Below are positions 7,133 to 32,241 of a DNA stretch of 64,000 bases, in pieces (positions within the stretch are counted from its first letter, which is position 1; every line of letters starts with the position of its first letter). The stretch comes from Halosimplex halophilum. Lineage in GTDB: Archaea > Halobacteriota > Halobacteria > Halobacteriales > Haloarculaceae. The stretch is from positions 434,001 to 498,000 of the forward strand of contig NZ_SRHV01000005.1 in NCBI RefSeq assembly GCF_004698125.1, read 5' to 3'. The position numbers were made by a program, and so were the translations under genes. Under the pieces are notes generated by a model. It ran no database searches. It saw only the letters and a list, made by a program, of their open reading frames with translations, and was not told where the DNA came from.

Positions 7133-7715
7133 TGGGACCCTCCTGGTTCGAACCGGACCCCACCACCTAGCGTGTAAATCCCCAGACAGGGGAGTGGTTG
7201 AACCGTATTCCTATAGATCGTTCGTGACGTTAGCCGTTGTCGCCGGCTAGTAGACCGATGGCTGTCGAAGAGCTACAGGTTCTCTACAGATGAGCAAGGC
7301 GAGTGTTTCGGGCGGTTGACCCCCGAGGTAAGCCGACACTCGGACGTGTCCTGCTCGTTCGAGTTCCACACCCCCTCGACGGCGAGTACGTCACCTTCCA
7401 AGCGAAATTCACCGGCGGACAACGAATCGAGATCTCCCACAGCGACTGACCCCGTGGCTGACGAGAGACGCGGAACGGCTCGTCCGCTCCGAAGCCGGCT
7501 TCGACCCGTCGTGTCACCGCTTTTTCGACGGTTCAGTCCTCCGCAAACACACCGTCGCTCTCTCGGTGCTACGACCCCACGAGATCCGCATTCTCGCGAG
7601 CCATCTTCGCCACCGAAGACGCCCGGTACGGATTCACTAGGATAGTACGAACTATATTTGGAAATATCCGAACCCAGGCGTACGATTAAATAATTTACTC
7701 GCCCACAATTCGACA
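7133..7715. other. 583-bp spacer with promoter of the GH42 gene
   Basis: No convincing gene: open frames on both strands here have basic, Ser/Arg-rich translations unlike the acidic proteome. The right end holds a TATA-like TTAAATAA (7686-7693), 26 nt before the GH42 start, and a TTTGGA-N4-TCCGAA site 25 bp upstream of it. Confidence 0.6.
7657..7672. promoter_or_regulatory. Putative operator TTTGGA-AATA-TCCGAA before GH42
   Basis: An imperfect 6-4-6 inverted repeat (one mismatch). Its centre lies ~25 bp upstream of the TATA-like element of the GH42 gene. The same layout is found at 16554-16571 and 20672-20687, which supports a shared regulator, probably acting as an activator given the position upstream of TATA. 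Confidence 0.6.
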
Positions 7716-9845
7716 ATGTTCGCGTACGGCGCTCAGTACTATCGTCCGCCGAATCCGCCGTCGGACGCCTGGGCCGACGACCTCTCTCAGATGGCCGATC
7801 TCGGGTTCAACACGGTGAAGCTGTGGGCGATGTGGAACCACGCCCACCCGAGCGAAGACGAGTTCGACTTCGCCGAGCTCGACGAACTGGTCGAACTCGC
7901 CGGTGAGCGCGATCTCGATGTCGTCATCTCGCTGATCCTGGAGAACGCGCCCCACTGGCTGGTCGACCGGCACCCCGAAGCCCGCTACGAGGACCACGAC
8001 GGCGGGAAAGTCGACGTGCGGGCGCGGCCGAACACGCCCGGGGGCGGGTGGCCCGGACTCTGCCTGAACCACGACGCGGTCCGCGACCACGCCGAGCGGT
8101 TCACGCGACGGCTGGCCGGCCGCTACTCGGACGACCCGACGGTCACCTCTTACACGACGTGGGACGAAGCGTTCTTCGAGCCGAACCTCCACTTCCCGGA
8201 CAAGCGGTTCTGTTACTGCGAAGCCTGCAGGGACAAGTTCGAGGACTGGCTTCGTGATCGATACGGTGCCATCGACGGCCTGAACGAGGCCTGGGAGACG
8301 CGATACACGTCGTGGTCACAGGTCGAACCGCCGAGGTACCACGGCGGGTACCCCCGGTATCTGGACTGGCTGCGGTTCCGCCTCGACTCCCAGCAGGGAC
8401 ACATGCAGTGGCGGGCGAGCGCCCTGGGCGAGGGCGACGCGACCGCGTCGGTCCGCGCACACGGCATCTCCGGCAATCTCGGCGACCTGCCCCACCGGTT
8501 CAACGACGACTGGCGGTCGGCCGATACCGTCGACGAGTGGGGAACGACGACGTTCCCCCACTGGGGGCCCGACCACCCCGACATCACGACCGACGCCGAG
8601 CGCCAGACGCTCGACCACCACCTGATGCTCGACGTCGCCAGGGGCGCCGCCGGCGAGAAACCGTTCTGGCAGACGGAACTCCAGGGCGGACACGTCCGGA
8701 GCGGCAACAGTATCGACCCCATGGGACTGACGCGAGGCCCCGATCCCGATCCGGAGTCGATGGCGCTGTGGAACTGGAACGCGCTCGCCGGGGGGGCGAC
8801 CGGCCTGCTCTACTGGCAGTACCGGCCGGAGCTGCTCGGCCACGAGAGCCCCGGGTTCGGCCTCGTCCGTCGGGACGGGTCGCGAACGGAGCGCACCGAG
8901 GTCGCCGCCTCGTTCGCCGACCTCGTCTCGGAGCGGCCCGTTCTCGAGGCGTCGGAACCGGTTCGCGGGGACGTCGCCATCGGCACGCTCGCGGAGGCGC
9001 CCCTGTTCAACTACGTCGCCGAGAAGGACACCGAGCAGTTCGCGACGGCCGTTCGCGGTGTCTACCGGGCGATGTGGGCGACCGACTACCAGGTCGACTT
9101 CGCCAAACCCCACCAGTTCGACGGGTACGACGCCGTCTACCTCCCCTTCCCGCTCCTGCTCGAACCGTCGACCGTCGAGGCTATCGAGGCGTACGTCGAC
9201 GGGGGCGGCACGCTCGTCACCGGCGGTGCGCCCGCCGTCTACGACGAGAACGGTCGATGCCTCCGTGAATCGCCCGGCCACGACCTGGACGAGGTCTTCG
9301 GCACGCGCCTGCGCACCACCCGGTACGCGGACGGCGAGACGCTGGAAGTCGCTGACGCGCGAGCGGCAGTCTCGGCCGACGGCGGAACGCCCGGCGTACA
9401 GGCTGCGCCGGCGGCCGCGAGACGCGACGTCTTCGACCCCACGACCGCGACCGCGCTCGGTCGCTGGAGCGACGGTGGCGTCGGCGCGACGGTCGACTCG
9501 CACGGCGACGGGACGGCGATGGCCGTCGGCACCCTTCTCGGCCGCGCGGCAACCGACGATGACGCGCTCGACGCGGTCCGGTCGACGCTCTCGCACCTGT
9601 TCGACCGGGGCGGGGCGAGCCCGACCGTCCGGTGCTCCGACGGGGCGGTCCAGACGCGACTCCACGCGACCGACGACGGCTGGTTGCTCTACGTGCTCAA
9701 TCCCACCGACGAATCCCGTACCGTCGACGTGCAGTGCAGTAAAACTGGGAGTGTCCAGGAGGCGCTCGGGGACCTCCGCGTCGACGCGGCCGACCCGCTC
9801 CGCGTGACGGTCGACGACCGCGCCGGCGGCGTCCTCCTCTTCTGA
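7716..9845 (+). CDS. GH42 family beta-galactosidase-like enzyme
   Basis: A 709-aa GH42-type enzyme (beta-galactosidase or alpha-L-arabinopyranosidase class). The barrel begins GAQYYRPP and WADDLSQMADLGFNTVK. The acid/base candidate is E151 (TTWDEAFF) and the nucleophile candidate E321 (FWQTELQGG), spacing close to Thermus A4 beta-galactosidase. The four zinc Cys of that family are visible: C116 and C166/C168/C171 (CYCEAC). The residue before the acid/base is Asp where clan GH-A usually has Asn. The C-terminal half has a trimerisation (GATase-like) domain and a final beta domain. No signal peptide, so hydrolysis occurs in the cytoplasm. The start fits a leaderless promoter. Confidence 0.9.
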   Translation: MFAYGAQYYRPPNPPSDAWADDLSQMADLGFNTVKLWAMWNHAHPSEDEFDFAELDELVELAGERDLDVVISLILENAPHWLVDRHPEARYEDHDGGKVDVRARPNTPGGGWPGLCLNHDAVRDHAERFTRRLAGRYSDDPTVTSYTTWDEAFFEPNLHFPDKRFCYCEACRDKFEDWLRDRYGAIDGLNEAWETRYTSWSQVEPPRYHGGYPRYLDWLRFRLDSQQGHMQWRASALGEGDATASVRAHGISGNLGDLPHRFNDDWRSADTVDEWGTTTFPHWGPDHPDITTDAERQTLDHHLMLDVARGAAGEKPFWQTELQGGHVRSGNSIDPMGLTRGPDPDPESMALWNWNALAGGATGLLYWQYRPELLGHESPGFGLVRRDGSRTERTEVAASFADLVSERPVLEASEPVRGDVAIGTLAEAPLFNYVAEKDTEQFATAVRGVYRAMWATDYQVDFAKPHQFDGYDAVYLPFPLLLEPSTVEAIEAYVDGGGTLVTGGAPAVYDENGRCLRESPGHDLDEVFGTRLRTTRYADGETLEVADARAAVSADGGTPGVQAAPAAARRDVFDPTTATALGRWSDGGVGATVDSHGDGTAMAVGTLLGRAATDDDALDAVRSTLSHLFDRGGASPTVRCSDGAVQTRLHATDDGWLLYVLNPTDESRTVDVQCSKTGSVQEALGDLRVDAADPLRVTVDDRAGGVLLF

Positions 9846-9871
9846 CCCACAGCCGCGGAGCTGTTTTACCG

Positions 9872-10123
9872 ATGGACGACGAAACTGAATCGATGGACGA
9901 GGGGATCAACTTCTGGACCGTCACGCTGGCGATGGGGGCGACGCTCGCCCTCCTGCTCGCGTTCTCGCTGCTCTACGTCGAGCCGGGGAGCGCCGCGGCG
10001 GTCGCCGTCCAGCTGAGCGTCGCCTTCCTCCTGATCCCCGTCGTGGGATCCCTGATCATCATCTACGTCGGGTGGCGCCCCTTCGAGGACGACCAGGACG
10101 ACGAGGAGAGCGTCTTCGATTGA
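9872..10123 (+). CDS. Small two-helix membrane protein
   Basis: 83 aa with an acidic N-terminus, two hydrophobic segments (~15-35 and ~45-67) and a very acidic tail (EDDQDDEESVFD). I do not recognise the family. It starts 26 bp after the GH42 stop, in the same direction, so it may be co-transcribed, though a T-rich stretch (ctgtttta) lies between and could belong to its own promoter. Confidence 0.65.
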   Translation: MDDETESMDEGINFWTVTLAMGATLALLLAFSLLYVEPGSAAAVAVQLSVAFLLIPVVGSLIIIYVGWRPFEDDQDDEESVFD

Positions 10124-10326
10124 ACCGGGAGTGACGAAGACACGTCGGCTTCGACGGTGGAGACCGGATACCGGTCACGAAATGGACCCGCGAGTGAAGC
10201 CACCGCTCTGCTGGGATTCACGACACCGGACGAAATCCAGGCAGCACGTCGACCGCGCCGCGGGAAAGCGGCCCGTTCCTGCGTACCGGCCGGGCGACGA
10301 ATCGGCCGTCGACGAGCGCGGGACCG

Positions 10327-11391
10327 CTAGTCGTCGAGTTCGGGGCTCGACCAGTACCGGTGGGTATCGTCGTCCCGGAAGCAGGCCGCGGCGTGGCCGC
10401 CGTCGTCACCGAGCGACGGGTGCTCCTCGCGGCAGGCCTCCCTGGCGACGGGACAGCGCGTGTGGAACCGACAGCCGCTCGGGGGGTCGGTCTGGTCGGG
10501 GATGTCGATGTCCCGGACCGGGGGCTCCTCGACCTGGACGTAGTCCGGGTGGAGGTTGGCGGTCGCCCACTTGAGGACCCGCGTGTAGGGGTGTTTGGGG
10601 TCCTGCAGGACCTCCTCTGCGGGGCCGACCTCGACGAGTTCGCCCATGTACATGATACCGATCCGCCCGCCGGCGCGCTTGGTCAGATACCGCGCGTTCG
10701 AGAGGTTGTGGCTGATGAACAGGAAGGAGGTGTCGAACCGGTCCTGCAGCTCCAGCATCAGGTCCATCATCTCGACGCGCAGGGAGACGTCCAGCGCGGA
10801 GACGGCCTCGTCGGCGAGGATCACGTCCGGGTTCATCAACAGGGCGCGGACGAGCGCGACGCGCTGTTTCTCGCCGCCGGAGAGCTGGTGGGGATACCGC
10901 TCGGCGTAGTCCGCCGGCGGCTCCATCCCGACGGTCTCGAGCATCCCGAGGATGCGAGCGCGGCGGTCCTCCCGCGAGAGGTCGTCGTACCAGCGCTTCA
11001 GCGGCGCGGCGAGCGTCGCCATCACCGTCTGGTTGGGGTTGAGCGACGACCCGGGGTCCTGGTGGACGATCTGCAGGGACCTGCGGATATCCGCCGCGTC
11101 GACCGACGCGTCGCCGGCTCCGTCGAAGGCGTCCCAGACGTCCTGTCCGCGGTACCGTACCTCGCCGTCGGTCGGCCGCTGGAGCCCGATCGCCGCCTTC
11201 CCGAGCGTGGTCTTCCCGCAGCCGGACTCGCCGACGAGCGCGACGACGTCGTTCTCCTCGATGTCAAGCGAGACGCCGTCGACCGCCCGGACCGGGGCCT
11301 TGCCGTCCCCGCGGAGTCGGTCGACCAGCCCCTCGTTCTGGTCGAAGTGGACCTCGACGTCCGACAGCGAGACGACCGGCTCCGCGCTCAT
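10327..11391 (-). CDS. Dipeptide/oligosaccharide-type ABC transporter ATPase (DppF-like)
   Basis: 354 aa from ATG 11391. Walker A GESGCGKTT, signature LSGGEKQRV, Walker B VILADEAVSALD, H-loop FISHNLS and a C-terminal oligo_HPY domain with GCRFHTRCPV. It powers import together with the ATPase encoded upstream; the two genes overlap by 4 bp. Genes of this class are named for peptides, but in archaea and Thermotoga many carry oligosaccharides; the surrounding glycosidases favour that here. It is the last gene of a five-gene operon running from 16508 down. Confidence 0.9.
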   Translation of the reverse strand: MSAEPVVSLSDVEVHFDQNEGLVDRLRGDGKAPVRAVDGVSLDIEENDVVALVGESGCGKTTLGKAAIGLQRPTDGEVRYRGQDVWDAFDGAGDASVDAADIRRSLQIVHQDPGSSLNPNQTVMATLAAPLKRWYDDLSREDRRARILGMLETVGMEPPADYAERYPHQLSGGEKQRVALVRALLMNPDVILADEAVSALDVSLRVEMMDLMLELQDRFDTSFLFISHNLSNARYLTKRAGGRIGIMYMGELVEVGPAEEVLQDPKHPYTRVLKWATANLHPDYVQVEEPPVRDIDIPDQTDPPSGCRFHTRCPVAREACREEHPSLGDDGGHAAACFRDDDTHRYWSSPELDD

Positions 11392-12509
11392 GGCCACTCC
11401 GCCTCCTCCTCGGGCGCGTGGTCCTCGATGTCGAACGGGACGCCCTCGGCCGCGTCCTCGTGGTGGAAACAGGCGACGTGGTGGTCGGTGCCGGCCGCCC
11501 GGAACTCCGGATCGGAGACCAGACACTCCTCGGTCGACAGCGGACACCGGGGGTGGTAACTGCACCCCTCCGGCGTGTTCACCGGGTCCGGGGCCGACCC
11601 CTCGATCGCCCGCATCTCGTCGAGTGGGATGTCCAGGTTCGGGACCGACCGCAACAGCGCCCTGGTGTAGGGGTGGGCGGCGTCGAGCACCGTCTCGCGG
11701 GCCGGCCCGACCTCGACGAGTTCGAAGGCGTACATCACGGCCAGGCGGTCGGCCAGCCCGGCGACCAGCGGCAGGTCGTGCGTGATGAACACGACGGTCA
11801 GGTCGTATTTCTCCTGCAGCTCGTTCAGCAGGCTCAGGATGGACCGCTGCATCAGGAGATCCAGCGCCGCCGTCGGTTCGTCCATCACCAGCACGTTCGG
11901 TTCGAGCACGAGCGACAGCGCGATGAGCGCCCGCTGTTGCATCCCGCCCGACAGCTCGTGGGCGTAGGAGTCGAGCACCCGGTCGGGGTCCATGTAGAGG
12001 TCCGAGATGAGGTCCCTGGCCCGACGGAGCCCCTCGTCGACGTCGTAGTCGTGGGCTTTCAGCGTCTCGACGAAGTGGCCCCGGACCGACAGCGTCGGGT
12101 TGAACGACGACTGGGCGCCCTGGAAGACCATGGCGATCTCCTCCCAGCGCAGGCGCTTCAGGTCGGACTCGGAGAGGCCCAGCACGTCGATCTCCGTGTC
12201 GGGGTCGGGGCGGTAGACGATCTCCCCCGAGAGCCGTCCCGGGTCGACGACGGCGTCGAGCAGCGCCGAGGCGAACATGGACTTGCCCGACCCGGACTCG
12301 CCGACGACGCCGAGTATCTCCTGTCTGGCCACGTCGACGCTCACGTCGTCGAGCACGCGGGACACCCCCCGGCTCATATCGAACGTGACGTTCACGTCCC
12401 GTAGTTCGAGGATCGGGTCGTCCGCCGTGGGTGTCGACGTTCCCGGGCCGGCGACTCCCGTCTCGTCTCGGTCCGTCTGGGTATCGGCAGTTGGGTCTGT
12501 TCGTGACAT
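11388..12509 (-). CDS. Dipeptide/oligosaccharide-type ABC transporter ATPase (DppD-like)
   Basis: 373 aa from ATG 12509. After a ~30-aa Thr/Asp-rich N-terminus come Walker A GESGSGKSM, Q-loop, signature LSGGMQQRA, Walker B VLVMDEPTAALD, H-loop FITHDLP and an oligo_HPY domain (GCSYHPRCPL). It pairs with the DppF-like ATPase (ATGA overlap at 11388-11391) and the two permeases encoded just upstream. An open frame continues past the chosen start but overlaps the permease gene and has no family match. Confidence 0.9.
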   Translation of the reverse strand: MSRTDPTADTQTDRDETGVAGPGTSTPTADDPILELRDVNVTFDMSRGVSRVLDDVSVDVARQEILGVVGESGSGKSMFASALLDAVVDPGRLSGEIVYRPDPDTEIDVLGLSESDLKRLRWEEIAMVFQGAQSSFNPTLSVRGHFVETLKAHDYDVDEGLRRARDLISDLYMDPDRVLDSYAHELSGGMQQRALIALSLVLEPNVLVMDEPTAALDLLMQRSILSLLNELQEKYDLTVVFITHDLPLVAGLADRLAVMYAFELVEVGPARETVLDAAHPYTRALLRSVPNLDIPLDEMRAIEGSAPDPVNTPEGCSYHPRCPLSTEECLVSDPEFRAAGTDHHVACFHHEDAAEGVPFDIEDHAPEEEAEWP

Positions 12510-12511
12510 GG

Positions 12512-13642
12512 TTACGTTCGAGTCGCGGTCGTAGCGGCCTGGCCGTCGCTCGGTTCCTCGTCGTCGTCGACCGTCGACGCGTGTTTGGCTCGCACGCGCG
12601 GGTTGAACAGCCGGTCGCAGCCCTGGGCGAACAGGATGAGCCCGAACGAGAGGAACACGACGGTGAACAGCGGGGCGAGCAACCAGTGGCGCAGCGAGTC
12701 GGAGTACAGCGCCCCGGAGTTGTACGCCCGGGTTATCATGACGCCCCAGTTCAGGTTCGAGAACGGGAGCACGCCGAGGAAGTACAGCCCCACGGAGCCG
12801 AAGATGACCCCGCGGGCCGCCCCGACGAAGTTCACCAGGATGTACGGCATCAGGTTCGGGAGGACGTCTCGCCCGAGGATGGTCGGTACGCCGAGTCCCA
12901 TCGTCCGCGACGCCTCGACGTACGGGGCGTTGCGGATCGTGAGCACCTGCGAGCGGACGGCTCGGGCCAGCCCGGCCCACGCGTTGATGGAGACGAGCAC
13001 GCCGACCACGATCGGGCTCTCGGGCTGGACGATCGCCGCCACCACGATGATGAGCGGCAGGCCCGGGATGGTCATCATGATGTCCGTGATCGTCATCAGG
13101 ACCGTCTCGGTCCACCCGCCCTTGTAGCCGGAGACGATCCCGATGACGGTCGCGACGATGATCGAGAAGACGGCACCGCCGAGGATCATCTTCAGCATCA
13201 CGGGCGTCGCGTGGACGACGCTGGCGAAGACGCCCTGGGCCTTCGGGTCGGTCCCGAGGGGGTACGCCCAGTTCTGGAACGGCGCGAGCAGTCGCGGTCC
13301 GGTGTTGGGCTCGGGGTACCGCACGAGCAGCGGCCCCACGGTCCCCATGAGGACGAACAGGAGGATGATGGCCGCGCCGGCGCGGGCCCGCCAGTCCGAC
13401 CACACGATGCGGGCGGGCGCGAGCAGCCAGAGGTCGACGAGCTGGCGGAGCCGGTCGGTCCCCTCGACGCTGTCGTCGGCCACGCGTTCGAACGGCGAGA
13501 CCGACCCCGCCGCACCGCCGTCGGTCGAGACCGCCCGAGGGTCCGACGACGAGGGGTCGTCCCCGCCCGACGCGGCGAACGACTGAAAGCGCTCGTCGCT
13601 GTCCCCGTCTTCGTCGCCGGTCCGGTCGTCAGTACGCTTCAT
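12512..13642 (-). CDS. ABC transporter permease (DppC-like)
   Basis: 376 aa from ATG 13642 (an in-frame ATG at 13651 would add three residues). A long acidic cytoplasmic N-terminus (~75 aa) precedes the first membrane helix; six helices in all, with the BPD_transp_1 loop (EASRTMGLGVPTILGRDVLP) that contacts the ATPases. The N-terminus overlaps the DppB-like gene by 14 bp. The domain forms the inner channel with DppB. Confidence in family is high, substrate unknown. Confidence 0.88.
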   Translation of the reverse strand: MKRTDDRTGDEDGDSDERFQSFAASGGDDPSSSDPRAVSTDGGAAGSVSPFERVADDSVEGTDRLRQLVDLWLLAPARIVWSDWRARAGAAIILLFVLMGTVGPLLVRYPEPNTGPRLLAPFQNWAYPLGTDPKAQGVFASVVHATPVMLKMILGGAVFSIIVATVIGIVSGYKGGWTETVLMTITDIMMTIPGLPLIIVVAAIVQPESPIVVGVLVSINAWAGLARAVRSQVLTIRNAPYVEASRTMGLGVPTILGRDVLPNLMPYILVNFVGAARGVIFGSVGLYFLGVLPFSNLNWGVMITRAYNSGALYSDSLRHWLLAPLFTVVFLSFGLILFAQGCDRLFNPRVRAKHASTVDDDEEPSDGQAATTATRT

Positions 13643-14636
13643 CGCTCTCACCTCCGGCGCGGGGGTCGAGTTTCCCGTAGGTCAGGTCCGCGATGAGGAC
13701 GCCGATGACGACCGCGACCGTGATGAGGATGAACCCGCCCATCATCAGCGGGTAGTCGCGCGACGATATCGACTTGAACACGTAGTAGCCGACGCCCTGG
13801 TAGGCGAAGATCTTCTCCAGGATGACCGACCCGCCGAACATCGTCCCGATGGAGATCATGATGCCCGTGTACATCGGGAGGATGGCATTGCGGGCGACGT
13901 ACCGGAGCGCGATCCGGCGCTCCGGCAGCCCGCGCAGGCGCGCCACCCGGAGGTAGTCCTCGCCGAGTTCGCTGATCGCGTTGCCCCGCATGGTGATGGC
14001 CTTCCCGCCGAATCCGGTCACGACCAGCGAGAGCACCGGCAGCGCCGCGTGGGTCAGGACGCCGACGACGAACGGGAGGTTGAGCCCGACGCTCGTCTGC
14101 GGGTTCATCCGGCCGGCCGTCGGGAACACCGACCACTCGAACCCGAGCAGGTACAGCAGGAGGATGGCCGCGATGTAGTAGGGGACCGAGTTCGCGACGA
14201 TCGACAGGAGCGTCGAGGCCGTGTCGAACCGGCTGCCCTCGCGGTAGGCCATGAACGCGCCCATCGAGACGCCGATCGCGAACATCAGACACAGCGAGAT
14301 GGACATGTACAGGACCGTCCACGGGACGGCGCTTCCCAGCAGGCCGGCGACGGGCTCCGCGTAGAAGATGGACCGCCCGAAGTCGAACTGCGCGAGCGCG
14401 GCCATGTATTCGACGTACTGTTCCCACATCGGCGCGTCCGTCTCGATGTTGGTGTAGAGAGCGATCTTCTGCTGGATCTCCTCCTGGTTGAGGTTCTGTC
14501 GCATGTACTGCGCCCGGAGGTAGTCGATCGGTCCCCCGGGCATCAGTCGAATGAGGACGAACGAGAGCGTCACGACGGCGTACACCGTGACGAAGGACTG
14601 CCCGATTCGTTTCGCGTAGTAACGGTTACTTGCCAT
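13629..14636 (-). CDS. ABC transporter permease (DppB-like)
   Basis: 335 aa; the N-terminus RIGQSFVTVYAVVTLSFVLI and the RLMPGG motif are typical of DppB/OppB. Six membrane helices and a cytoplasmic coupling loop (RVARLRGLPERRIALRYVAR). It lies 21 bp downstream of the solute-binding protein gene and overlaps the DppC-like gene. Confidence 0.9.
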   Translation of the reverse strand: MASNRYYAKRIGQSFVTVYAVVTLSFVLIRLMPGGPIDYLRAQYMRQNLNQEEIQQKIALYTNIETDAPMWEQYVEYMAALAQFDFGRSIFYAEPVAGLLGSAVPWTVLYMSISLCLMFAIGVSMGAFMAYREGSRFDTASTLLSIVANSVPYYIAAILLLYLLGFEWSVFPTAGRMNPQTSVGLNLPFVVGVLTHAALPVLSLVVTGFGGKAITMRGNAISELGEDYLRVARLRGLPERRIALRYVARNAILPMYTGIMISIGTMFGGSVILEKIFAYQGVGYYVFKSISSRDYPLMMGGFILITVAVVIGVLIADLTYGKLDPRAGGESDEAY

Positions 14637-14657
14637 GATGAGTGACGGGCGACCGCG

Positions 14658-16508
14658 CTACTTGGTCCGGGCCTGGATCTCGCCCATCCGGTCGGCCCAC
14701 CAGTGGGGTTCGCCCTGTTGCATGAGCTCGCCGTCGAGCGGGGGGAGCTCCCAGTTTTTGGTGTCGAAGAGGTTGATGTCGTGTTCGACGGTGATCGGCA
14801 TCTTCGGCAGCGTCATGTTGTACAGCCACGCGGCCTTCCGGTTGAGACGCTGTTCTTCCGCGGGGTCCTGCGCCGTCGAGAGGTCCTCGAACAGCTGGGC
14901 GACGTCGACCGTCTCGGTCGAGCCGTTCGGGTCCCCGACGGGCATCGGAACGTCGATCTGTTCGGGGTAATTCGTCTGGTCCGCCCACCAGCCCAGCGTC
15001 ACGGCGCGGATGTGGTAGCCGGGATAGCCGGCCTGGAACCACACGCCGGACCACCAGTCGCCGATGACGTCGAAGTTCCCGTTCGGGACGATCTCGCCGT
15101 ACATCTGCGTGTGTCCGACCTTCTGGAGTTCCGCGTCGACGCCGAAGTTGCCCAGCTGACTGGTGACGTTCTGCCCGATAGACACCCAGTAGCCGCCCCG
15201 CCCTTCCTTGATGGTGGGGGCGAACGGCTCCCCGTCGGGCTTCTGCCAGGTGCCGTCGGACTTCGAGAAGCCCGCGTCGCGCAGGAGCTGCGCCGCTTTC
15301 TCCCGGTCTTTCTCGTAGGTGAGGTACTGGTCCTGGGCGTCGCCGAGGTACGTGTCGAGCATGCTGTTCGAGACGCCGCAGGGGATCTCGATAGCGTCGC
15401 GCTGGTACGCGCCGGAGGTGTTCTCGGCCACGAGCCCGAAGTCGATGGCGTAGAGCATCGCCTGGCGGACCCGGCGGTCGTCCCAGGGCTCCTTGTTGAA
15501 GTTCGCGACCAGCCCGTAGCCGTTGTACAGCGGGACCTTGTTCCAGTCGACGGCGTCGGGTTGCTGTTCGATCTGGGACTGAGTCGGGTGGGTCTTCGTC
15601 CAGTAGTCGATCCTGTCGTTCGCGAGCGCGAGCGACCGCTTGGACTTGCTCGGGACGTAGCGCCAGCCGGCCTGGCTGAAGTTGCGCTCGTCGGCGCTGA
15701 AGTGGCCGTTGTCGTAGTCTTCGTAGAGTTCGAAGGTCCACTCCTGGTTCGAGGCGCTCTTGAACTGCCAGGGGCCGTTCCCGATGGGGTGTTTCTCGGC
15801 CCCGAACTGCAGCTCCATCTCCTGGAGGTCGGTGATGACCGCCTGCTCCTCCTCCTCGCTCTCGGCGTTGCGCGCTCGCTCGGCGAACTCGCCGTAGATG
15901 CTCGTCTTGGCCTGGAGCCGACGGCTGAGGATCTGGTTGAGGACCATGAACTCGTTGGCCGGTTTGCTCAGCGAGAACTCCATGCTTCGCTCGCCCGTCT
16001 TCTCGTAGGATTCGACGGTGTCGAACGGGGATCCGAGCAGCGATTCGATGTCCAGCTGCGTGACGAGGTCGTCGGCGGTCACCGGGTCGCCGTCGTGCCA
16101 GGTGTACGTGTCCCTGAGCTGGAGCGTCGCGGTCGTCCCGTCGACGCTCCAGTCGTCCGCGACGAACCCGACGAACTCGTGGTTGTTCCCGTGGTACCGG
16201 CCCAGGTGGTCGTACAGGAAGAACCCGTCGAAGTTGTAGTTCTTGCCCCAGGGGTTGTGCTGGCCGTCCTCGCCGGGTTTCGTGAGGACGCCCTTCCAGG
16301 TGGATTCGACGGGCTCGGGGGACGGGGTATTCTCACTACTGGTACCGCCGTCACCGCCGTCACCGCCGTCGCCCGCACCGTCAGTGCCGTCACCACCGCC
16401 GCCGTCGGTGTCGCCCGAACAACCCGCGAGACCGAGCGTGACACCGGTCAGCCCGATGCCTTTCACCACTCGACGCCGCGAGTAGGCGTTGCGATCATGA
16501 GGTTCCAT
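14658..16508 (-). CDS. ABC transporter solute-binding lipoprotein (SBP family 5)
   Basis: 616 aa. The N-terminus carries a twin-arginine lipobox signal (SRRRVVKGIGLTG, then LAGC), so it is exported folded and lipid-anchored outside the cell. A Gly/Asp linker follows, then the SBP_bac_5 fold (~70-610). It is first in the operon and captures the substrate for the Dpp-type channel. Its TATA-like element (TTTATAA, 16537-16543 on the opposite strand) lies ~32 nt before the ATG; a perfect TTTGGA-N4-TCCAAA palindrome sits just upstream, shared with the divergent Gfo/Idh gene. An oligosaccharide ligand is inferred from context. Confidence 0.9.
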   Translation of the reverse strand: MEPHDRNAYSRRRVVKGIGLTGVTLGLAGCSGDTDGGGGDGTDGAGDGGDGGDGGTSSENTPSPEPVESTWKGVLTKPGEDGQHNPWGKNYNFDGFFLYDHLGRYHGNNHEFVGFVADDWSVDGTTATLQLRDTYTWHDGDPVTADDLVTQLDIESLLGSPFDTVESYEKTGERSMEFSLSKPANEFMVLNQILSRRLQAKTSIYGEFAERARNAESEEEEQAVITDLQEMELQFGAEKHPIGNGPWQFKSASNQEWTFELYEDYDNGHFSADERNFSQAGWRYVPSKSKRSLALANDRIDYWTKTHPTQSQIEQQPDAVDWNKVPLYNGYGLVANFNKEPWDDRRVRQAMLYAIDFGLVAENTSGAYQRDAIEIPCGVSNSMLDTYLGDAQDQYLTYEKDREKAAQLLRDAGFSKSDGTWQKPDGEPFAPTIKEGRGGYWVSIGQNVTSQLGNFGVDAELQKVGHTQMYGEIVPNGNFDVIGDWWSGVWFQAGYPGYHIRAVTLGWWADQTNYPEQIDVPMPVGDPNGSTETVDVAQLFEDLSTAQDPAEEQRLNRKAAWLYNMTLPKMPITVEHDINLFDTKNWELPPLDGELMQQGEPHWWADRMGEIQARTK

Positions 16509-16553
16509 GACATCCCAAACAAGCGGTTTATGGTGATTTATAATTTAGCGACT

Positions 16554-16571
16554 CTTTGGATACATCCAAAG
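16554..16571. promoter_or_regulatory. Perfect operator palindrome CTTTGGA-TACA-TCCAAAG
   Basis: A perfect 7-4-7 inverted repeat in the 126-bp divergent region between the solute-binding protein and Gfo/Idh genes. Its centre is ~22 bp upstream of the transporter's TATA and ~42 bp upstream of the weaker TTAAG element of the Gfo/Idh gene. It is the best copy of a motif also found before the GH42 gene and the HTH gene. Confidence 0.75.
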
Positions 16572-16634
16572 ACGTTTTGTCGCTATCAAACACTCGCGTA
16601 CCGTTAAGCCCGCACCGCGCGCTCTTCGACGCGT

Positions 16635-17681
16635 ATGCAACGCGAGATCATGATCGACTCGCCCGACGAGGGCGTAGACGAGGACACCCTCCGGGTCGGG
16701 GTCATCGGCACGGGTGCGATCGCCCAGCGGTTCCACCTGCCCGGGTACGCCGACCACTCCGACGCCACGGTCACCGCGGTCTGTGACGTCGAGGAACGGA
16801 AAGCGCGCGCCGTCGCCGACGAAGTCGGCGCCGAACACACCTTCACCGACACCGGCGACCTCGTCGAGTCGGGGACCGTCGACGCGGTCAGCGTTTGTCT
16901 CCCGAACCACCTGCACGCGGACGCGGTCACCGCGGCGCTGGCCGAGGACCTGCACGTCCTCTGTGAGAAGCCGATGGCGACGACGCTGGCCGAGGCCGAC
17001 GAGATGGTCGCGGCCGCGGACGCGAGCGACGGCATCCTGATGATCGACCAGTCCGAGCGCTTCGCCCCGGTCTACCAGAAGGCGATGTCGGTGCTCGAGA
17101 GCGGTCTCGTCGGCGACGTACAGACGGTCCGCGCGCGGTTCAGCCACAGCGGTCCCGAGGGGTGGGCCCCGCGGTCGACCTGGTTCACCGACGCCGAGGC
17201 GTCGGGCGGCGGCGCGATGGTCGACATCGGCATTCACAACGCCGACCTCGTGCTGTCGCTCGCCGGCGACGTCGAGTCCGTGACCGCCGAGACGGCGACG
17301 CTCGCGATGGACGCCGACGTGGAAGACACCGCCGTCGCGACGATGCGGCTGGCCGACGGCGGGCTCGGCACCTTCGAGGTGTCCTGGACGACCGATCCCG
17401 AACGGATCGAGACGCAGGTCGTCGGGACCGAGGGAGTCCTCACCGTCGACAAGGTGGCCGGCGAACTGACCGTCGACCTCGACGGCGACCGCGGGCGCGT
17501 CGACGTCCCGGTCCCCGAGTATCGGAGCCCCATCGCGCGGTTCGTCGACGCCGCGCTCGACGGCGAGGAACCGCCGGTGACTGCCCGCGAGGGACGGGAC
17601 GCGCTGGAGCTCGTCCTGGCGATCTACCGGGCGGCCGAGGCGCGCCGCCCGGTCTCGTTGCCGCTGGAGGGGGACACGTGA
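16635..17681 (+). CDS. Gfo/Idh/MocA family NAD(P)-dependent oxidoreductase
   Basis: 348 aa. The N-terminal Rossmann fold starts at RVGVIGTGAIAQRFHLPGY; the family EKP motif with the catalytic Lys is CEKPMATTL; the C-terminal domain has GGGAMVDIGIHNADL with the catalytic His. The family oxidises or epimerises sugars and inositols. A TATA-like TTAAG lies ~30 nt before ATG 16635, so the short N-terminal extension is kept. It overlaps the next gene by 4 bp (GTGA at 17678), so the two enzymes probably act in sequence on one sugar. Confidence 0.9.
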   Translation: MQREIMIDSPDEGVDEDTLRVGVIGTGAIAQRFHLPGYADHSDATVTAVCDVEERKARAVADEVGAEHTFTDTGDLVESGTVDAVSVCLPNHLHADAVTAALAEDLHVLCEKPMATTLAEADEMVAAADASDGILMIDQSERFAPVYQKAMSVLESGLVGDVQTVRARFSHSGPEGWAPRSTWFTDAEASGGGAMVDIGIHNADLVLSLAGDVESVTAETATLAMDADVEDTAVATMRLADGGLGTFEVSWTTDPERIETQVVGTEGVLTVDKVAGELTVDLDGDRGRVDVPVPEYRSPIARFVDAALDGEEPPVTAREGRDALELVLAIYRAAEARRPVSLPLEGDT

Positions 17682-18463
17682 AACTCGCCTGTTCGAGCTA
17701 CTCCTACCACGACGCCTTCGAGCGCGGCGACCTCGACGTGTTCGGCTTTCTCGAGCGCGCCGGGAGCGACCTCCCGGTCGAGGGCGTCGAACTCATCGAG
17801 GAGCACCTCCCCGGTGGGGACGAGGCGACGCTGGGCGAGGTCCGCGACGCGGCGGCCGACCACGGGGTCGAGGTCGCCTGCCTCTCGGTGTTCTACAACG
17901 ATTTCGCCAAACCTGACCGCTCGGACCGCCGGGAAGACGTCGACCACGTCACCGCGTGGACCGACCGGGCGGACGTGCTGGGCGCCGATGTCGTGCGCGC
18001 GTTCACCGGCTTCCCCGCCCTCCACGACCGCGAACACGGCGACCCCGCGGTCTGGCGCGACGTGGGACGGTGCCTGCAGGAGTGTCTCGACCACGCCCGC
18101 ACCTGCGAGGCGACTCTCGCCGTCGAGAACCACAACCACGACGGCCTGATCCGTACCGCCGACGACATCTTCGGCGTCCGCCGCCGGGTCAACGGCGACC
18201 TCGGGTTCGTCCTGGACCTGGCGAACTACGTCGACGGTCGCCCGTCGATCGAGCGGACCCGCCACCTCGCCGACCACGTCCACGCCGCCTACGACGCGGT
18301 CGACGAGCGCGGTCGCGACCCCGAACACCCCTACTACGCCGAGGAACTGGACTCGCTGGCCGCCGCCGGCTACGACGGGTACGTCACGCTGGAGTGGGAG
18401 GGCGAAACCGACGACGAGACGGCCGTGCCGCGGGCGCTGTCCTATCTCGACGACTGCCGCTAG
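17678..18463 (+). CDS. Sugar phosphate isomerase/epimerase (AP endonuclease 2-like TIM barrel)
   Basis: 261 aa from GTG 17678, which overlaps the Gfo/Idh stop. The barrel has the metal-site pattern of the family: a Glu in GVELIEEHL, AVENHNHDG, FVLDLANY, HVHAAYDA and a final Glu in TLEWEGE. Members isomerise or epimerise keto-sugars or inosose intermediates. Pairing with a Gfo/Idh dehydrogenase is a well-known arrangement for oxidation-epimerisation of sugars. Substrate not determined. Confidence 0.87.
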   Translation: MKLACSSYSYHDAFERGDLDVFGFLERAGSDLPVEGVELIEEHLPGGDEATLGEVRDAAADHGVEVACLSVFYNDFAKPDRSDRREDVDHVTAWTDRADVLGADVVRAFTGFPALHDREHGDPAVWRDVGRCLQECLDHARTCEATLAVENHNHDGLIRTADDIFGVRRRVNGDLGFVLDLANYVDGRPSIERTRHLADHVHAAYDAVDERGRDPEHPYYAEELDSLAAAGYDGYVTLEWEGETDDETAVPRALSYLDDCR

Positions 18464-18496
18464 CGAGGGCCCCGTTTCGGGACGGCCGTTCCGCGA

Positions 18497-19525
18497 CTAA
18501 CTCCCGGGACGGACCAGATACCGATACCCCTCGCCGGCGCGCATCCGGTCGAACGCCTCCGTGATCCCCGAGAGCGGCAGGTCCTCCGAGAGGAGCGCGT
18601 CGACGGTGACGCGGCCCGTCCTGAGGAACGATACCGCCCGTGCGAAATCGTCGGGCGTCAGCGAGTACGACCCGGTGAGCGTCCGCTCGTGGAAGAACAC
18701 GTCGAACGGGTTCACCTCGACGGTCGCGTCCTCCTCGGGCACGCCGAAGACGAGCGTCGTTCCGCCCTTGCGGGTCGCGTCGTAGGCCTGCTGGATGGTC
18801 TCCGGGAGCCCGATGGCCTCGACGGCCGCCGCGACGCCACGGCCGTCCGTTGCCCGTTCGACGGCGGCCACGGGATCGACATCGGCGGGATCGATCCCGG
18901 CGGTGGCGCCGTGGTCGAGCGCGAGCTCGCGACGGTCGTCGCGGGGCTCCGAGACGACGATGCGACCCGCCCCGAGCGCGTCGAACGTCTGGACGAGCAA
19001 CTGTCCCATCGGGCCGGCGCCGACGACGAGCACGTCGTCGCCCGCCTCGACACCGGTTCGGCGAACACCGTGGAGGCTACAGGCGAGCGGTTCCGCGATC
19101 GCCGCCGGGCCGAACGGGAGGTCTCCCACCGGTTCGACGTTCCCGGCCGGGACCCGAACGTACTCGGCGAACGCGCCGTCGCGGACCGTCTCCGCGGCGC
19201 CCCCGAGCGACGTGTTCCGCTCGCAACGCTGTTCGTGCCCGGCCTCGCACTGGCGACAGCTGTTGCAGGGGACCGTCGGGTTGACCGCGACGCGAGTTCC
19301 CTCCGGCACCACGTCGGGACGGTTCGACGCGACCACCTCGCCCGCGGCCTCGTGGCCGGGCACCAGCGGCGTCTCGACGCCGAACGACCCCTCGTAGAGG
19401 TGAATATCTGTCGTACAGACGCCGCAGGCCTCGACGCGTACGAGGACGTCCTCCGGGCCAGGGGTCGGACGGTCGCGCTCCCGAACGGCGAACGATTCGG
19501 TGCCAGTGAGGACAGCGGCTCTCAT
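18497..19525 (-). CDS. Zinc-dependent medium-chain dehydrogenase (sorbitol/threonine dehydrogenase type)
   Basis: 342 aa from ATG 19525. Catalytic zinc ligands lie in EACGVCTTDIH and PGHEAAGE; the structural zinc loop is CNSCRQCEAGHEQRC; the cofactor site is VVGAGPMGQLL. It oxidises a polyol or sugar alcohol with NAD(P). Its ATG overlaps the stop of the upstream hydrolase-like gene by 4 bp, so the two form an operon; the product of that hydrolase is a plausible substrate source (inference). Confidence 0.9.
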   Translation of the reverse strand: MRAAVLTGTESFAVRERDRPTPGPEDVLVRVEACGVCTTDIHLYEGSFGVETPLVPGHEAAGEVVASNRPDVVPEGTRVAVNPTVPCNSCRQCEAGHEQRCERNTSLGGAAETVRDGAFAEYVRVPAGNVEPVGDLPFGPAAIAEPLACSLHGVRRTGVEAGDDVLVVGAGPMGQLLVQTFDALGAGRIVVSEPRDDRRELALDHGATAGIDPADVDPVAAVERATDGRGVAAAVEAIGLPETIQQAYDATRKGGTTLVFGVPEEDATVEVNPFDVFFHERTLTGSYSLTPDDFARAVSFLRTGRVTVDALLSEDLPLSGITEAFDRMRAGEGYRYLVRPGS

Positions 19526-20598
19526 CGTCCCTTCAGATCGGCGAGACCCTCGAACGACTCCTCGACGACGCTCCACTGGTCGTCGGTGAGCCGGCCGATG
19601 TTCGCGCCGGCCGAGAACAGGCTCACGCCGGCTGCTCCCCCGTGGAGGGCCATCTGGATGGCCGTGAGGAGTTCGCCCTGACTCAGGTGATCGCCCGGGT
19701 CGTCGCTGCTGGCGGTCCGGATCGACGGGACGATCGGTTTCCCGACGGCGTCGCGAAGAGAGCGCGTGACGTCCCGGATCCACAGCGGGTGGACGCCCAT
19801 GTCGACGTGGGCCGTCCGCGGCGAGAGCGTGTCGACGTGTTCGGCGAGCCGTTCGATGTCGAGCCCGAGCTGCTCGCGGCTGTCCCGGAGCGTCGACTCC
19901 ATGTCCGAGTATACCTCGAACTGGAGGTTGACCATCTGCTCGTCGTCGAACGGCGCAGCCAGCGACGCCAGGAGGTCCGTCGTCGTCGAGACGCGGTGGT
20001 CGATCCACTCGCCGTGGTCGCGCTGGGCCGTCTCGTCGCCGTCCTCGATACCGAGACACTCGTCGCAGTAACAGGAGAGGTAGTCGCTCTCGCCGTTGCG
20101 GATGGGCTGGTACTCGAGGTGCTGGAAGCGGATCCCGTCGATGTCGTACTCGCTTATCTCCTCCGCGAGCGCCAGGAGGTGGTCCCTGACCGCCTCGCGG
20201 CTGGGACAGACCCAGTGCATCCACTCGAAGGAGACGTTGGGATACCGGATGGCGGTCCCGTCGCGGGCCACCTGGACGAACTCCGAGTGCTGTTCGAGCA
20301 GGTACTTGTCCGTGAGCGCGAGAAAGACGGGGACGACCCTGAGGTCGCGCCGCTCGGCCGCCGCGACGAACTCCGCCAGCAGGTCGCGTTCGGGCACCTG
20401 GTTCGGGACGGTGTCCGAGTCGTAGAACACCCGACCGTCGCTCTCCTTGCAGATCACCATCACGGTGTTGACGTTCCGCTCCGCCAGGTCCGCGAGCACC
20501 GAATCGACGTCCATCGTCGCCCAGGGGTAGAGCGTCACCGCTCGAACACCCTCCGTCTCCCACCAGCCGCGGGCGTCCCCAGTGGTCATTACTGACAT
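19522..20598 (-). CDS. TIM-barrel glycoside-hydrolase-like protein with CxCxxC motif
   Basis: 358 aa. The sequence runs like a clan GH-A barrel (EGVRAVTLYPWATMDVDSVL; AERRDLRVVPVF; YDIDGIRFQHLEYQ; AGVSLFSAGANI), without signal peptide. CYCDEC near residue 185 resembles the CYCEAC zinc motif of the GH42 enzyme encoded at 7716. I cannot assign a GH family; it resembles uncharacterised hydrolase-like barrels (GHL/family-10-like groups). Candidate acids include the Asp/Glu of IDGIRFQHLE. A TATA-like element ~24 nt upstream supports ATG 20598 over ATG 20589. Confidence 0.65.
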   Translation of the reverse strand: MSVMTTGDARGWWETEGVRAVTLYPWATMDVDSVLADLAERNVNTVMVICKESDGRVFYDSDTVPNQVPERDLLAEFVAAAERRDLRVVPVFLALTDKYLLEQHSEFVQVARDGTAIRYPNVSFEWMHWVCPSREAVRDHLLALAEEISEYDIDGIRFQHLEYQPIRNGESDYLSCYCDECLGIEDGDETAQRDHGEWIDHRVSTTTDLLASLAAPFDDEQMVNLQFEVYSDMESTLRDSREQLGLDIERLAEHVDTLSPRTAHVDMGVHPLWIRDVTRSLRDAVGKPIVPSIRTASSDDPGDHLSQGELLTAIQMALHGGAAGVSLFSAGANIGRLTDDQWSVVEESFEGLADLKGR

Positions 20599-20671
20599 GA
20601 TAGCGTTCGTCTCTCCTAAATGTAGTGAAGTACCAAAGCCGCACCCGTTCCATCGGATTCATCAAACTATA

Positions 20672-20687
20672 TTTGGATAAATACGAA
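20672..20687. promoter_or_regulatory. Putative operator TTTGGA-TAAA-TACGAA before HTH gene
   Basis: A degenerate 6-4-6 copy (two mismatches between arms) of the TTTGGA-N4-TCCAAA site. Centre is ~24 bp upstream of a TATA-like acatttttga (20698-20707), the same geometry as at the GH42 gene. It lies between the divergent hydrolase-like gene and the HTH gene and would allow autoregulation. Confidence 0.5.
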
Positions 20688-20739: not shown

Positions 20740-21084
20740 ATGAGCGGCCAGAACAACTTCACGAGACGGATGCCGACGGCGACCGGCGCCGACGACGGAG
20801 GCGTCGAACTGTCGGTCGAGGACGAGGACGTGTTCGCGGTCGCCGACGCGATCGGCTCCAAACCGCGGTGGCGGTTGCTGCGGACCGTCGCCGAGGAACC
20901 CCACACCATCGACGAACTCGTCGACGCCCTCGACCTCTCGAAGGGGACCATCTCGGTCCACATCTCGAAGTTCGAGGACGCGGGGATCTTCGAGGCGAAC
21001 TACGCGGTCAGCGACGACGGCGGCGTGAAAAAAGAGCTCAGGCTCGCCGTCGACGAAGTGACGCTCGACCTGGCGTCCCTGTGA
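20740..21084 (+). CDS. Small winged-HTH regulator (ArsR/TrmB-like)
   Basis: 114 aa from ATG 20740; an upstream ATA codon is not needed. Residues ~25-100 form a winged helix: VFAVADAIGSKPRWRLLRTV, then TIDELVDALDLSKGTISVHI as the recognition region, and a wing KKELRLAV. No sensor domain. It is followed after 2 bp by the large hydrolase-like gene and preceded by a TTTGGA-type site. It is the best local candidate for the regulator of that motif, or it may only control its own operon. Confidence 0.8.
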   Translation: MSGQNNFTRRMPTATGADDGGVELSVEDEDVFAVADAIGSKPRWRLLRTVAEEPHTIDELVDALDLSKGTISVHISKFEDAGIFEANYAVSDDGGVKKELRLAVDEVTLDLASL

Positions 21085-21086
21085 CG

Positions 21087-24363: not shown

Positions 24364-24909
24364 ATGGAATTGACACGCCGCGACGCGGTAGCGGCGCTTG
24401 CGGCTATCGGTATCGGCGGAGGCGTGGTGTACGGTGCGTTCGAGTTCGCAGACCGCGGCGTGTCCGACGGAACGCCGTCGGGGACGGAGGACCCCGACTC
24501 GCTGCTGGAGACGACGGTGGCGCTCGCCGAGGTCGTCTACCCTCCGGAGGTTACCGAAGTCGAACCGTTCGTCCGGGAGTTCGTGTCCGGGCGGATCGAG
24601 GACGACGACCGACACACGGCGATGGTCGACGCCGCGGACGCGCTTGACGCCCGAGCGCGCTCGGAGTACAGCGCGTCGTTCTACGAACTCGACCCCGAGG
24701 AGGGGGACGCGCTCCTCGAAACGCTGGGGATGTCGGAGGTAGACCCCGACCCCGAGGGCGACGAGCGCGAGCGGATCCGGTACTACCTCGTCAACGAGTT
24801 GCTCTACGGCCTGCTGCGCTCACCGAAGGGCGGGCAACTCGTGGGGCTCGAAAACCCACCGGGCCACCCCGGCGGACTGGAGGCCTACCAGCAGGGTCCC
24901 GACCGATGA
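24364..24909 (+). CDS. Gluconate 2-dehydrogenase subunit 3 (gamma) family protein
   Basis: 181 aa. The N-terminus has a twin-arginine-type signal (ELTRRDAVAALAAIG), followed by the helical gluconate_2-dh3 domain (ETTVALAEVVYPPEVTEVE; YYLVNELLYGLLRSPKGG). In bacterial membrane-bound gluconate or sugar dehydrogenases this subunit escorts the FAD subunit through Tat. The FAD subunit is the next gene (ATGA overlap), and no cytochrome c subunit is nearby, so the electron acceptor is unknown. Leaderless promoter. Confidence 0.88.
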   Translation: MELTRRDAVAALAAIGIGGGVVYGAFEFADRGVSDGTPSGTEDPDSLLETTVALAEVVYPPEVTEVEPFVREFVSGRIEDDDRHTAMVDAADALDARARSEYSASFYELDPEEGDALLETLGMSEVDPDPEGDERERIRYYLVNELLYGLLRSPKGGQLVGLENPPGHPGGLEAYQQGPDR

Positions 24910-32178: not shown

Positions 32179-32241
32179 ATGCGCTCCGAGAGAGCGACCG
32201 GTCGCGGGACCGCGGCGGCCGTGCGTCGAGGTGGACAGTGA
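32179..32241 (+). CDS. Possible 20-codon leader frame before the second GMC gene
   Basis: ATG 32179 opens a 20-aa frame (MRSERATGRGTAAAVRRGGQ) whose TGA overlaps the GTG start of the GMC gene (GTGA), an arrangement typical of translational coupling. The position matches that of the gamma-subunit gene before the first GMC copy, but no clear similarity is visible. It may be a leader peptide, a vestige, or chance. Confidence 0.3.
   Translation: MRSERATGRGTAAAVRRGGQ

Follow-up and report, generated by a model that had tools for sequence, protein, structure and literature searches.

A conserved inverted-repeat operator and a candidate ArsR-like regulator in a sugar and glycoside gene cassette of Halosimplex halophilum

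Within a 64,000-nucleotide stretch of the Halosimplex halophilum genome (contig NZ_SRHV01000005.1, positions 434,001 to 498,000 of the forward strand, referred to here as the window), three repeats related to TTTGGA-N4-TCCAAA lie in the promoters of a set of sugar and glycoside genes. It is quite probable that these repeats are operators of a local sugar/glycoside regulon and that they are bound by a small ArsR-like winged helix-turn-helix (HTH) protein encoded at position 20740. This interpretation is favoured because of the sites themselves, their conservation at matching promoters in other haloarchaea, their spacing from TATA-like elements and their co-occurrence with the gene for the proposed regulator, all of which can be read from sequence. 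The cassette probably represents an archaeal sugar regulon of local extent that has an operator and a cognate regulator of its own; we infer that the "glycan" label which the initial annotation gave to it may be appropriate.

Operator sites and their conservation

The sites and promoter elements of the window are as follows.

7657-7672, + strand: operator 1, TTTGGAAATATCCGAA, before the GH42 gene; one mismatch to TTTGGA-N4-TCCAAA
7685-7696, + strand: TATA-like element of the GH42 promoter, ATTAAATAATTT; 23-25 bp from the centre of operator 1
16536-16546, - strand: TATA element of the dppA promoter, ATTTATAATTT (+ strand letters); 21 bp from the centre of operator 2, kept in the sister genome
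16554-16571, no strand assigned: operator 2, CTTTGGATACATCCAAAG, in the dppA/gfo divergent promoter; perfect palindrome
16575-16590, + strand: weaker operator-like site, TTTTGTCGCTATCAAA, in the dppA/gfo promoter
16603-16608, + strand: TATA-like GTTAAG of the gfo promoter, within the conserved block GTACCGTTAAG, which is identical in the sister genome
20672-20687, + strand: operator 3, TTTGGATAAATACGAA, before the HTH gene; two mismatches to TTTGGA-N4-TCCAAA
20698-20706, + strand: TATA-like element of the HTH promoter, ACATTTTTG; about 23-24 bp from the centre of operator 3

All three repeats described in the initial annotation can be read directly in the sequence at its positions. Its statement that they are of one inverted-repeat design holds for operators 1 and 2, the latter having a 16-bp core without mismatch (16555-16570) and flanks that extend the symmetry to an 18-mer; operator 3 is a poor palindrome, although it is conserved, and its support comes from conservation rather than symmetry. 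The spacing of 22-25 bp to a TATA-like element, which had also been claimed, was observed for the GH42 and HTH promoters and is slightly shorter for dppA, but it does not apply to gfo, where the centre of operator 2 is 43 bp from GTTAAG. The weaker site at 16575-16590, which the initial annotation did not mention, gives gfo the usual spacing: its distance to the TATA-like element downstream is 23 bp, and that to operator 2 is 20 bp. The same 20-bp offset from the main site is seen in the sister genome (TTTGACCAGAGTCGAA, L051 12823-12838).

The rarity of the motif was examined at several levels of stringency. A loose search allowing up to three mismatches was uninformative, with four sites found in the window against 4.5 expected and thus no excess. 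When one mismatch at most was permitted, two sites were found in all 4.47 Mb of the genome, both of them in this stretch, while with two mismatches there were 18 sites as compared to 11 for a control pattern, three of the 18 lying in this 13-kb stretch. The pattern TTTGGA-N6-CRAA occurs at four places in the genome, three of which are the window operators, and TTTG-N8-CNAA has three matches in the 64 kb, all within the three promoters. The best 16-mer common to the three promoters has 12 identical columns, a value that none of 2500 shuffles reached (best 11), the shuffling having been carried out on the AT-rich promoters themselves with dinucleotides preserved. Among 293 genomes of the order, perfect palindromes were present in 17 genomes, compared to four for the control pattern, which is a weak enrichment; the operator signal is local to the cassette and not order-wide. 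The CUT1-type sugar ATP-binding cassette (ABC) operon at 26.6-32 kb contains no comparable site when scanned with the position weight matrix (PWM) described below, its best match (30835) being weak, AT-rich and badly placed, in agreement with the initial annotation.

A metagenome-assembled genome (MAG) from the same genus provides the closest comparison. It was the sole match when the alignment of the solute-binding protein was scanned against genome contigs, and its contig (G339:C12) carries a syntenic cassette with 61-83% protein identity. When up to three mismatches were allowed, 20 kb of this contig gave two matches and no others: the dppA/gfo gap contains TTTAGATGTATTCAAA, and TTTGGCTGTATTCAAA precedes the HTH gene. 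The two are at positions aligned with the window sites, the second of them with operator 3. At the sites the two sister promoters have 15 of 17 bases in common, which was equalled in one of 2000 shuffles. DppA homologues found elsewhere have 30-36% identity, are not orthologues and were excluded from the analysis of motif conservation.

More distant cassettes were identified with a profile of the HTH protein, which detected orthologues (E values of 1e-32 to 1e-34) in four genomes of one genus of another family, Haladaptatus, two of them being Haladaptatus pallidirubidus (G194) and H. caseinilyticus. A fifth orthologue (G9465_19425) is present on plasmid CP050015.1 of Haloarcula sp. JP-L23. All five contain the same gene set, consisting of malK, GHL6, HTH (divergent), malG, malF, malE, a xylose-isomerase-like (XI-like) gene and gfo. 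In the Haladaptatus cassettes the operator was found before malK (TTTGGAAATATCCAAA in G194, TTTGGAAATAACCAAA in G171 and G108), before the HTH gene (TTTGGMTATTATCGAA; operator 3 aligns with Haladaptatus TTTGGCTATTATCGAA) and before gfo (TTTGGAAACNATCSAA), and 20-bp-spaced sites are also present in the HTH/GHL6 gap. In JP-L23 it is present at the malK, HTH and gfo promoters with half-sites TTTGG or TTTGA. A further operator precedes malE in all five CUT1-type cassettes (L129 24721-24736; upstream gaps of L124/L126/L128 and L121). It reads TTTGAYGCAAATCAAA in all four genomes of Haladaptatus and TTTGTCTCTAATCAAA in that of JP-L23, and in every case a TTTATA or TTTATT box is found at a distance of 24 bp. 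All four TTTG-N8-CAAA matches in 40.3 kb of JP-L23 fall in the four cassette promoters, and in 5000 shuffles of these promoters there was never more than one promoter with a match. In the AT-richer Haladaptatus genomes, dozens of chance matches to TTTGGA-N6-CRAA occur and the argument from rarity is weaker there. TTTGG-type matches inside malE itself (25380 in G108, 25461 in G194) were disregarded because they lie in coding sequence. With these results, both expectations of the initial annotation are borne out: the motif is conserved before the orthologous genes (in the sister MAG, the four Haladaptatus genomes, one of them, G156, in part, and JP-L23), and random DNA of like composition does not contain it as often (as judged by genome counts and shuffles).

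Two analyses bear on whether the motif depends upon the pattern seen in the window. A de novo search of 45,056 inverted-repeat designs was carried out on nine promoters, taken from JP-L23 and from two of the Haladaptatus genomes, with no window sequence included; the best design was TATTTG-N8-CAAATA, which is the same operator in an outer frame. In addition, a palindromic PWM was trained on the Haladaptatus and JP-L23 sites only (leave-lineage-out). When this PWM was run over the 64-kb window, operators 2, 1 and 3 took ranks 1, 2 and 3, with scores of 24.8, 23.9 and 23.6 bits, respectively, and the weaker site at 16575-16590 ranked fourth at 12.2 bits, about half of the scores of the top three.

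Two further observations concern the operator sequences. The GH42 (7648-7664) and HTH (20665-20681) promoters of the window have 15 of 17 bases in common (CGAACTATATTTGGAAA and CAAACTATATTTGGATA); the likeness extends beyond the operator core on its upstream side, and it looks as though one of the promoters were a copy of the other. In H. pallidirubidus, a different replicon carries the site TTTGGATAATATCGAA (G194:C2:214316-214331, L159), which is nearly identical to the Haladaptatus HTH operator; it is possibly a further member of the regulon or a chance match.

The candidate regulator and the genes of the cassette

The genes around the sites are listed below.

7716-9845, + strand: GH42 glycoside hydrolase (Pfam PF02449, 1.1e-54)
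10327-16508, - strand: Dpp/Opp-type importer operon (Pfam and NCBIfam; syntenic in the sister MAG)
14658-16508, - strand: solute-binding protein of this operon (dppA)
13629-14636 and 12512-13651, - strand: permeases of this operon
About 11388-12395 and 10327-11397, - strand: ATPases of this operon
16635-17681, + strand: Gfo/Idh/MocA oxidoreductase, gfo (Pfam; 57-59% identity to the Haladaptatus cassettes)
17678-18463, + strand: XI-like (sugar phosphate isomerase/epimerase) protein (61-63% identity to the Haladaptatus cassettes)
19522-20598, - strand: GHL6 or "family 10 glycosylhydrolase"-type protein (Pfam PF14871), divergent from the HTH gene
20740-21084, + strand: small ArsR-like winged-HTH protein of 114 amino acids (aa) (Pfam HTH_5, 35.2 bits against a cutoff of 22)
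21081-23660, + strand: 859-aa protein with no assigned family (61% identity in the sister MAG)

The HTH gene at 20740, which had been proposed earlier as the leading candidate regulator, is the best candidate, since its orthologue is present in all seven cassettes, in each case behind a copy of the operator, and since, among the sampled genomes of the order, the five that have close orthologues of it are also the five with close Gfo orthologues. The LSKGT-SVH segment of its HTH domain is invariant in six aligned sequences. The closest solved chains are of the ArsR type, the nearest being an arsenic-responsive repressor with an E value of just 4e-6. The cutoff for HTH_5 is exceeded, but the features of an ArsR/SmtB metalloregulator are missing: the 114 aa contain no cysteine, and the NCBIfam metalloregulator model gives 29.9 bits against a cutoff of 55. 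The TrmB domain (PF01978) was absent from the Pfam matches up to an E value of 0.01, and no Pfam match to IclR HTH or effector domains was obtained for the protein. A description of this regulator or of the motif was not found in the literature searched, which covers few subscription journals.

A single cassette combining the HTH, Gfo, XI-like and GHL6 genes is found again in the sister MAG, the four Haladaptatus genomes and the Haloarcula plasmid, and this cassette is probably horizontally mobile. Its constant core consists of Gfo, XI-like and GHL6, to which the window adds GH42 and, together with the sister, the 859-aa protein. The importer is of the Dpp type in the window and the sister, and of the CUT1 type in Haladaptatus and JP-L23 (L121-L130). 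The XI-like gene overlaps gfo by 4 bases, and its JP-L23 orthologue is annotated as of sugar phosphate isomerase/epimerase type. The GHL6-type gene has 53-55% identity to, and occupies the same place as, its counterparts in the Haladaptatus cassettes, and it is in the same place in JP-L23 as well. A zinc alcohol dehydrogenase gene (- strand) is also present among the cassette-region genes of the window.

Because the 859-aa gene overlaps the HTH gene by 4 bases, the two probably form one operon behind operator 3. The 859-aa protein had no match in Pfam, NCBIfam or, by profile search, PDB; its AlphaFold model has a mean pLDDT of 36 and its middle part appears helical from the sequence. Its relatives are limited to the sister MAG plus a fragment elsewhere. 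This fragment (G082:C3, L054 10681-11451; 57% identity) covers the C-terminus and does not mark another cassette; it is the remnant of a lost copy of the 859-aa gene in another family. It stands directly after a transposase pair which, judged from the translations, resembles IS200/IS605. Beyond the cassette, the window contains a GMC oxidoreductase with a small Tat-signal-like partner at 24364-26504, a pair that has no operator, and a second GMC-type oxidoreductase at 32238-33833.

Proposed mode of action and alternative explanations

The operator approximates a TATTTGG-N6-CCAAATA palindrome with half-site centres 10 bp apart, a spacing that we infer would fit a winged-HTH dimer. A homodimer of the 20740 protein would most likely bind it, the regulator's own gene standing behind a copy of the operator. 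At the window and sister sites the operator centre is 21-25 bp upstream of the TATA-like element, and at malE it is 24 bp upstream in five genomes. The operator thus ends just upstream of the B recognition element (BRE), where a bound regulator would most likely help TBP and TFB to load and so activate transcription. Where two sites stand 20 bp apart in a divergent promoter, each of them probably serves one direction of transcription. Binding, dimerization, activation and the presence of an inducing glycoside are all predicted parts of this scheme. A more extended proposal, for which we would put the chances as about even, is that this single-domain 114-aa ArsR-like protein acts as a BRE-proximal activator of a mobile cassette, whose control of Gfo, XI-like and GHL6 was kept while the importer was swapped between the Dpp and CUT1 types and GH42 and the 859-aa protein were recruited. 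If true, it would constitute a new class of sugar regulator beside the IclR, TrmB and GfcR types known so far.

Several observations weigh against the assignment of these repeats as operators of the 20740 protein. Operator 3, with its right half TACGAA, lacks good symmetry, and GH42, the gene behind operator 1, has no orthologue with which its site could be compared (141 other genomes of the family yielded no match at E<=1e-100). The sites other than those at malE were found by means of the window's pattern and are not fully independent of it. In G156 the gfo site is unrecognizable and that of malK deviates from the core at three positions, and the Haladaptatus malK and gfo promoters have no clear TATA at a spacing of 21-25 bp. 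Lastly, a Gfo-bearing genome without the HTH gene, which would serve as a negative control, was not found in the sample.

Many ArsR-type proteins repress, and the possibility that the HTH protein reads the operator as a repressor released by an inducer is the most serious alternative, although we consider it doubtful. The nearest solved relative is itself a repressor, the operator stands before the HTH gene in all cassettes and autoregulation is common among repressors; moreover, the operator nearly abuts the BRE, so that some hindrance is possible. However, the constant spacing upstream of the BRE/TATA is the position of activation in TrmB-family regulators and TK0271. Activation is favoured because a location upstream of the BRE/TATA is tied to it in other archaea, and by this analogy it appears clearly likelier than repression.

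It is rather unlikely that the operator is read by a protein encoded elsewhere, such as a global sugar regulator of the TrmB or IclR type, with the HTH gene merely one of its targets. The known haloarchaeal sugar regulators are indeed of the IclR (XacR, GacR, RhcR and MscR), GfcR and TrmB types (PMC11519228; PMC4158304), but the strong sites are restricted to the cassette in a 4.47-Mb genome, which is not what would be expected if the regulator were global. In addition, no regulator gene other than that of the HTH protein was seen in every cassette of the three lineages, and the motif of Halobacterium TrmB, TACT-N7-8-GAGTA, is different (PMC4158304). That the repeats are chance AT-rich inverted repeats is very improbable. 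Promoters are AT-rich, the loose search revealed no excess and the order-wide difference in perfect palindromes is modest; against this stand the composition-preserving shuffles, the conservation at matching promoters in three lineages and the first three ranks in the leave-lineage-out scan.

Comparison with known regulatory systems

If the assignment to the 20740 protein is correct, a specific haloarchaeal operator can be matched with one small regulator, and only a few pairs of this kind are known from haloarchaea; it is of help that Haladaptatus and Haloarcula are culturable. The exchange of the importer under a kept operator suggests how a mobile catabolic cassette retains control while swapping parts. 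The regulon also provides a way to approach the 859-aa protein and the substrate used by the uncharacterized Gfo/XI-like/GHL6 pathway.

In the TrmB family, sites are located upstream of the BRE/TATA with activation and downstream with repression; the motif of TrmBL1/Tgr (TGM) is TATCAC-N5-GTGATA and autoregulation has been proposed for Tgr (PMC4158304). The present system resembles the TrmB regulons in having a palindromic operator of sugar transport and metabolism genes upstream of the BRE/TATA, but its motif is different and the candidate matches ArsR/HTH_5, with no TrmB model reported. Similarly, XacR, GacR, RhcR and MscR, which are of the IclR family, and GfcR are haloarchaeal activators of sugar catabolism (PMC11519228), and the regulator predicted here would likewise be a cassette-local activator beside ABC importer and dehydrogenase genes; in contrast to them, it is a winged-HTH protein of 114 aa without a recognized ligand-binding domain. 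TK0271 of Thermococcus kodakarensis (TGGACA-N8-TGTCCA) activates in vitro from sites upstream of the BRE/TATA (PMC6737238), and in both cases palindromes precede the BRE/TATA of several operons including the regulator's own, although TK0271 controls aromatic amino acid synthesis and its motif is different. With the ArsR/SmtB regulators, the candidate shares the HTH_5 match above the cutoff and ArsR-type chains as its closest solved structures, but it differs from them in the lack of cysteine, in a score below the metalloregulator cutoff and in its location in a sugar-gene cassette.

As a lead concerning function, the set of Gfo, XI-like and GMC proteins recalls, by analogy, the bacterial 3-keto-glycoside route. 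The 3-keto-glycoside operon of Agrobacterium tumefaciens encodes GlycDH, a Gfo oxidoreductase and a sugar phosphate isomerase-like eliminase and hydratase (PMC10628242). The window is similar to it in having a Gfo and XI-like pair with the GMC oxidoreductase and its small partner nearby (24364-26504), whereas the A. tumefaciens operon is bacterial and the GMC pair of the window stands outside the operator-bearing genes.

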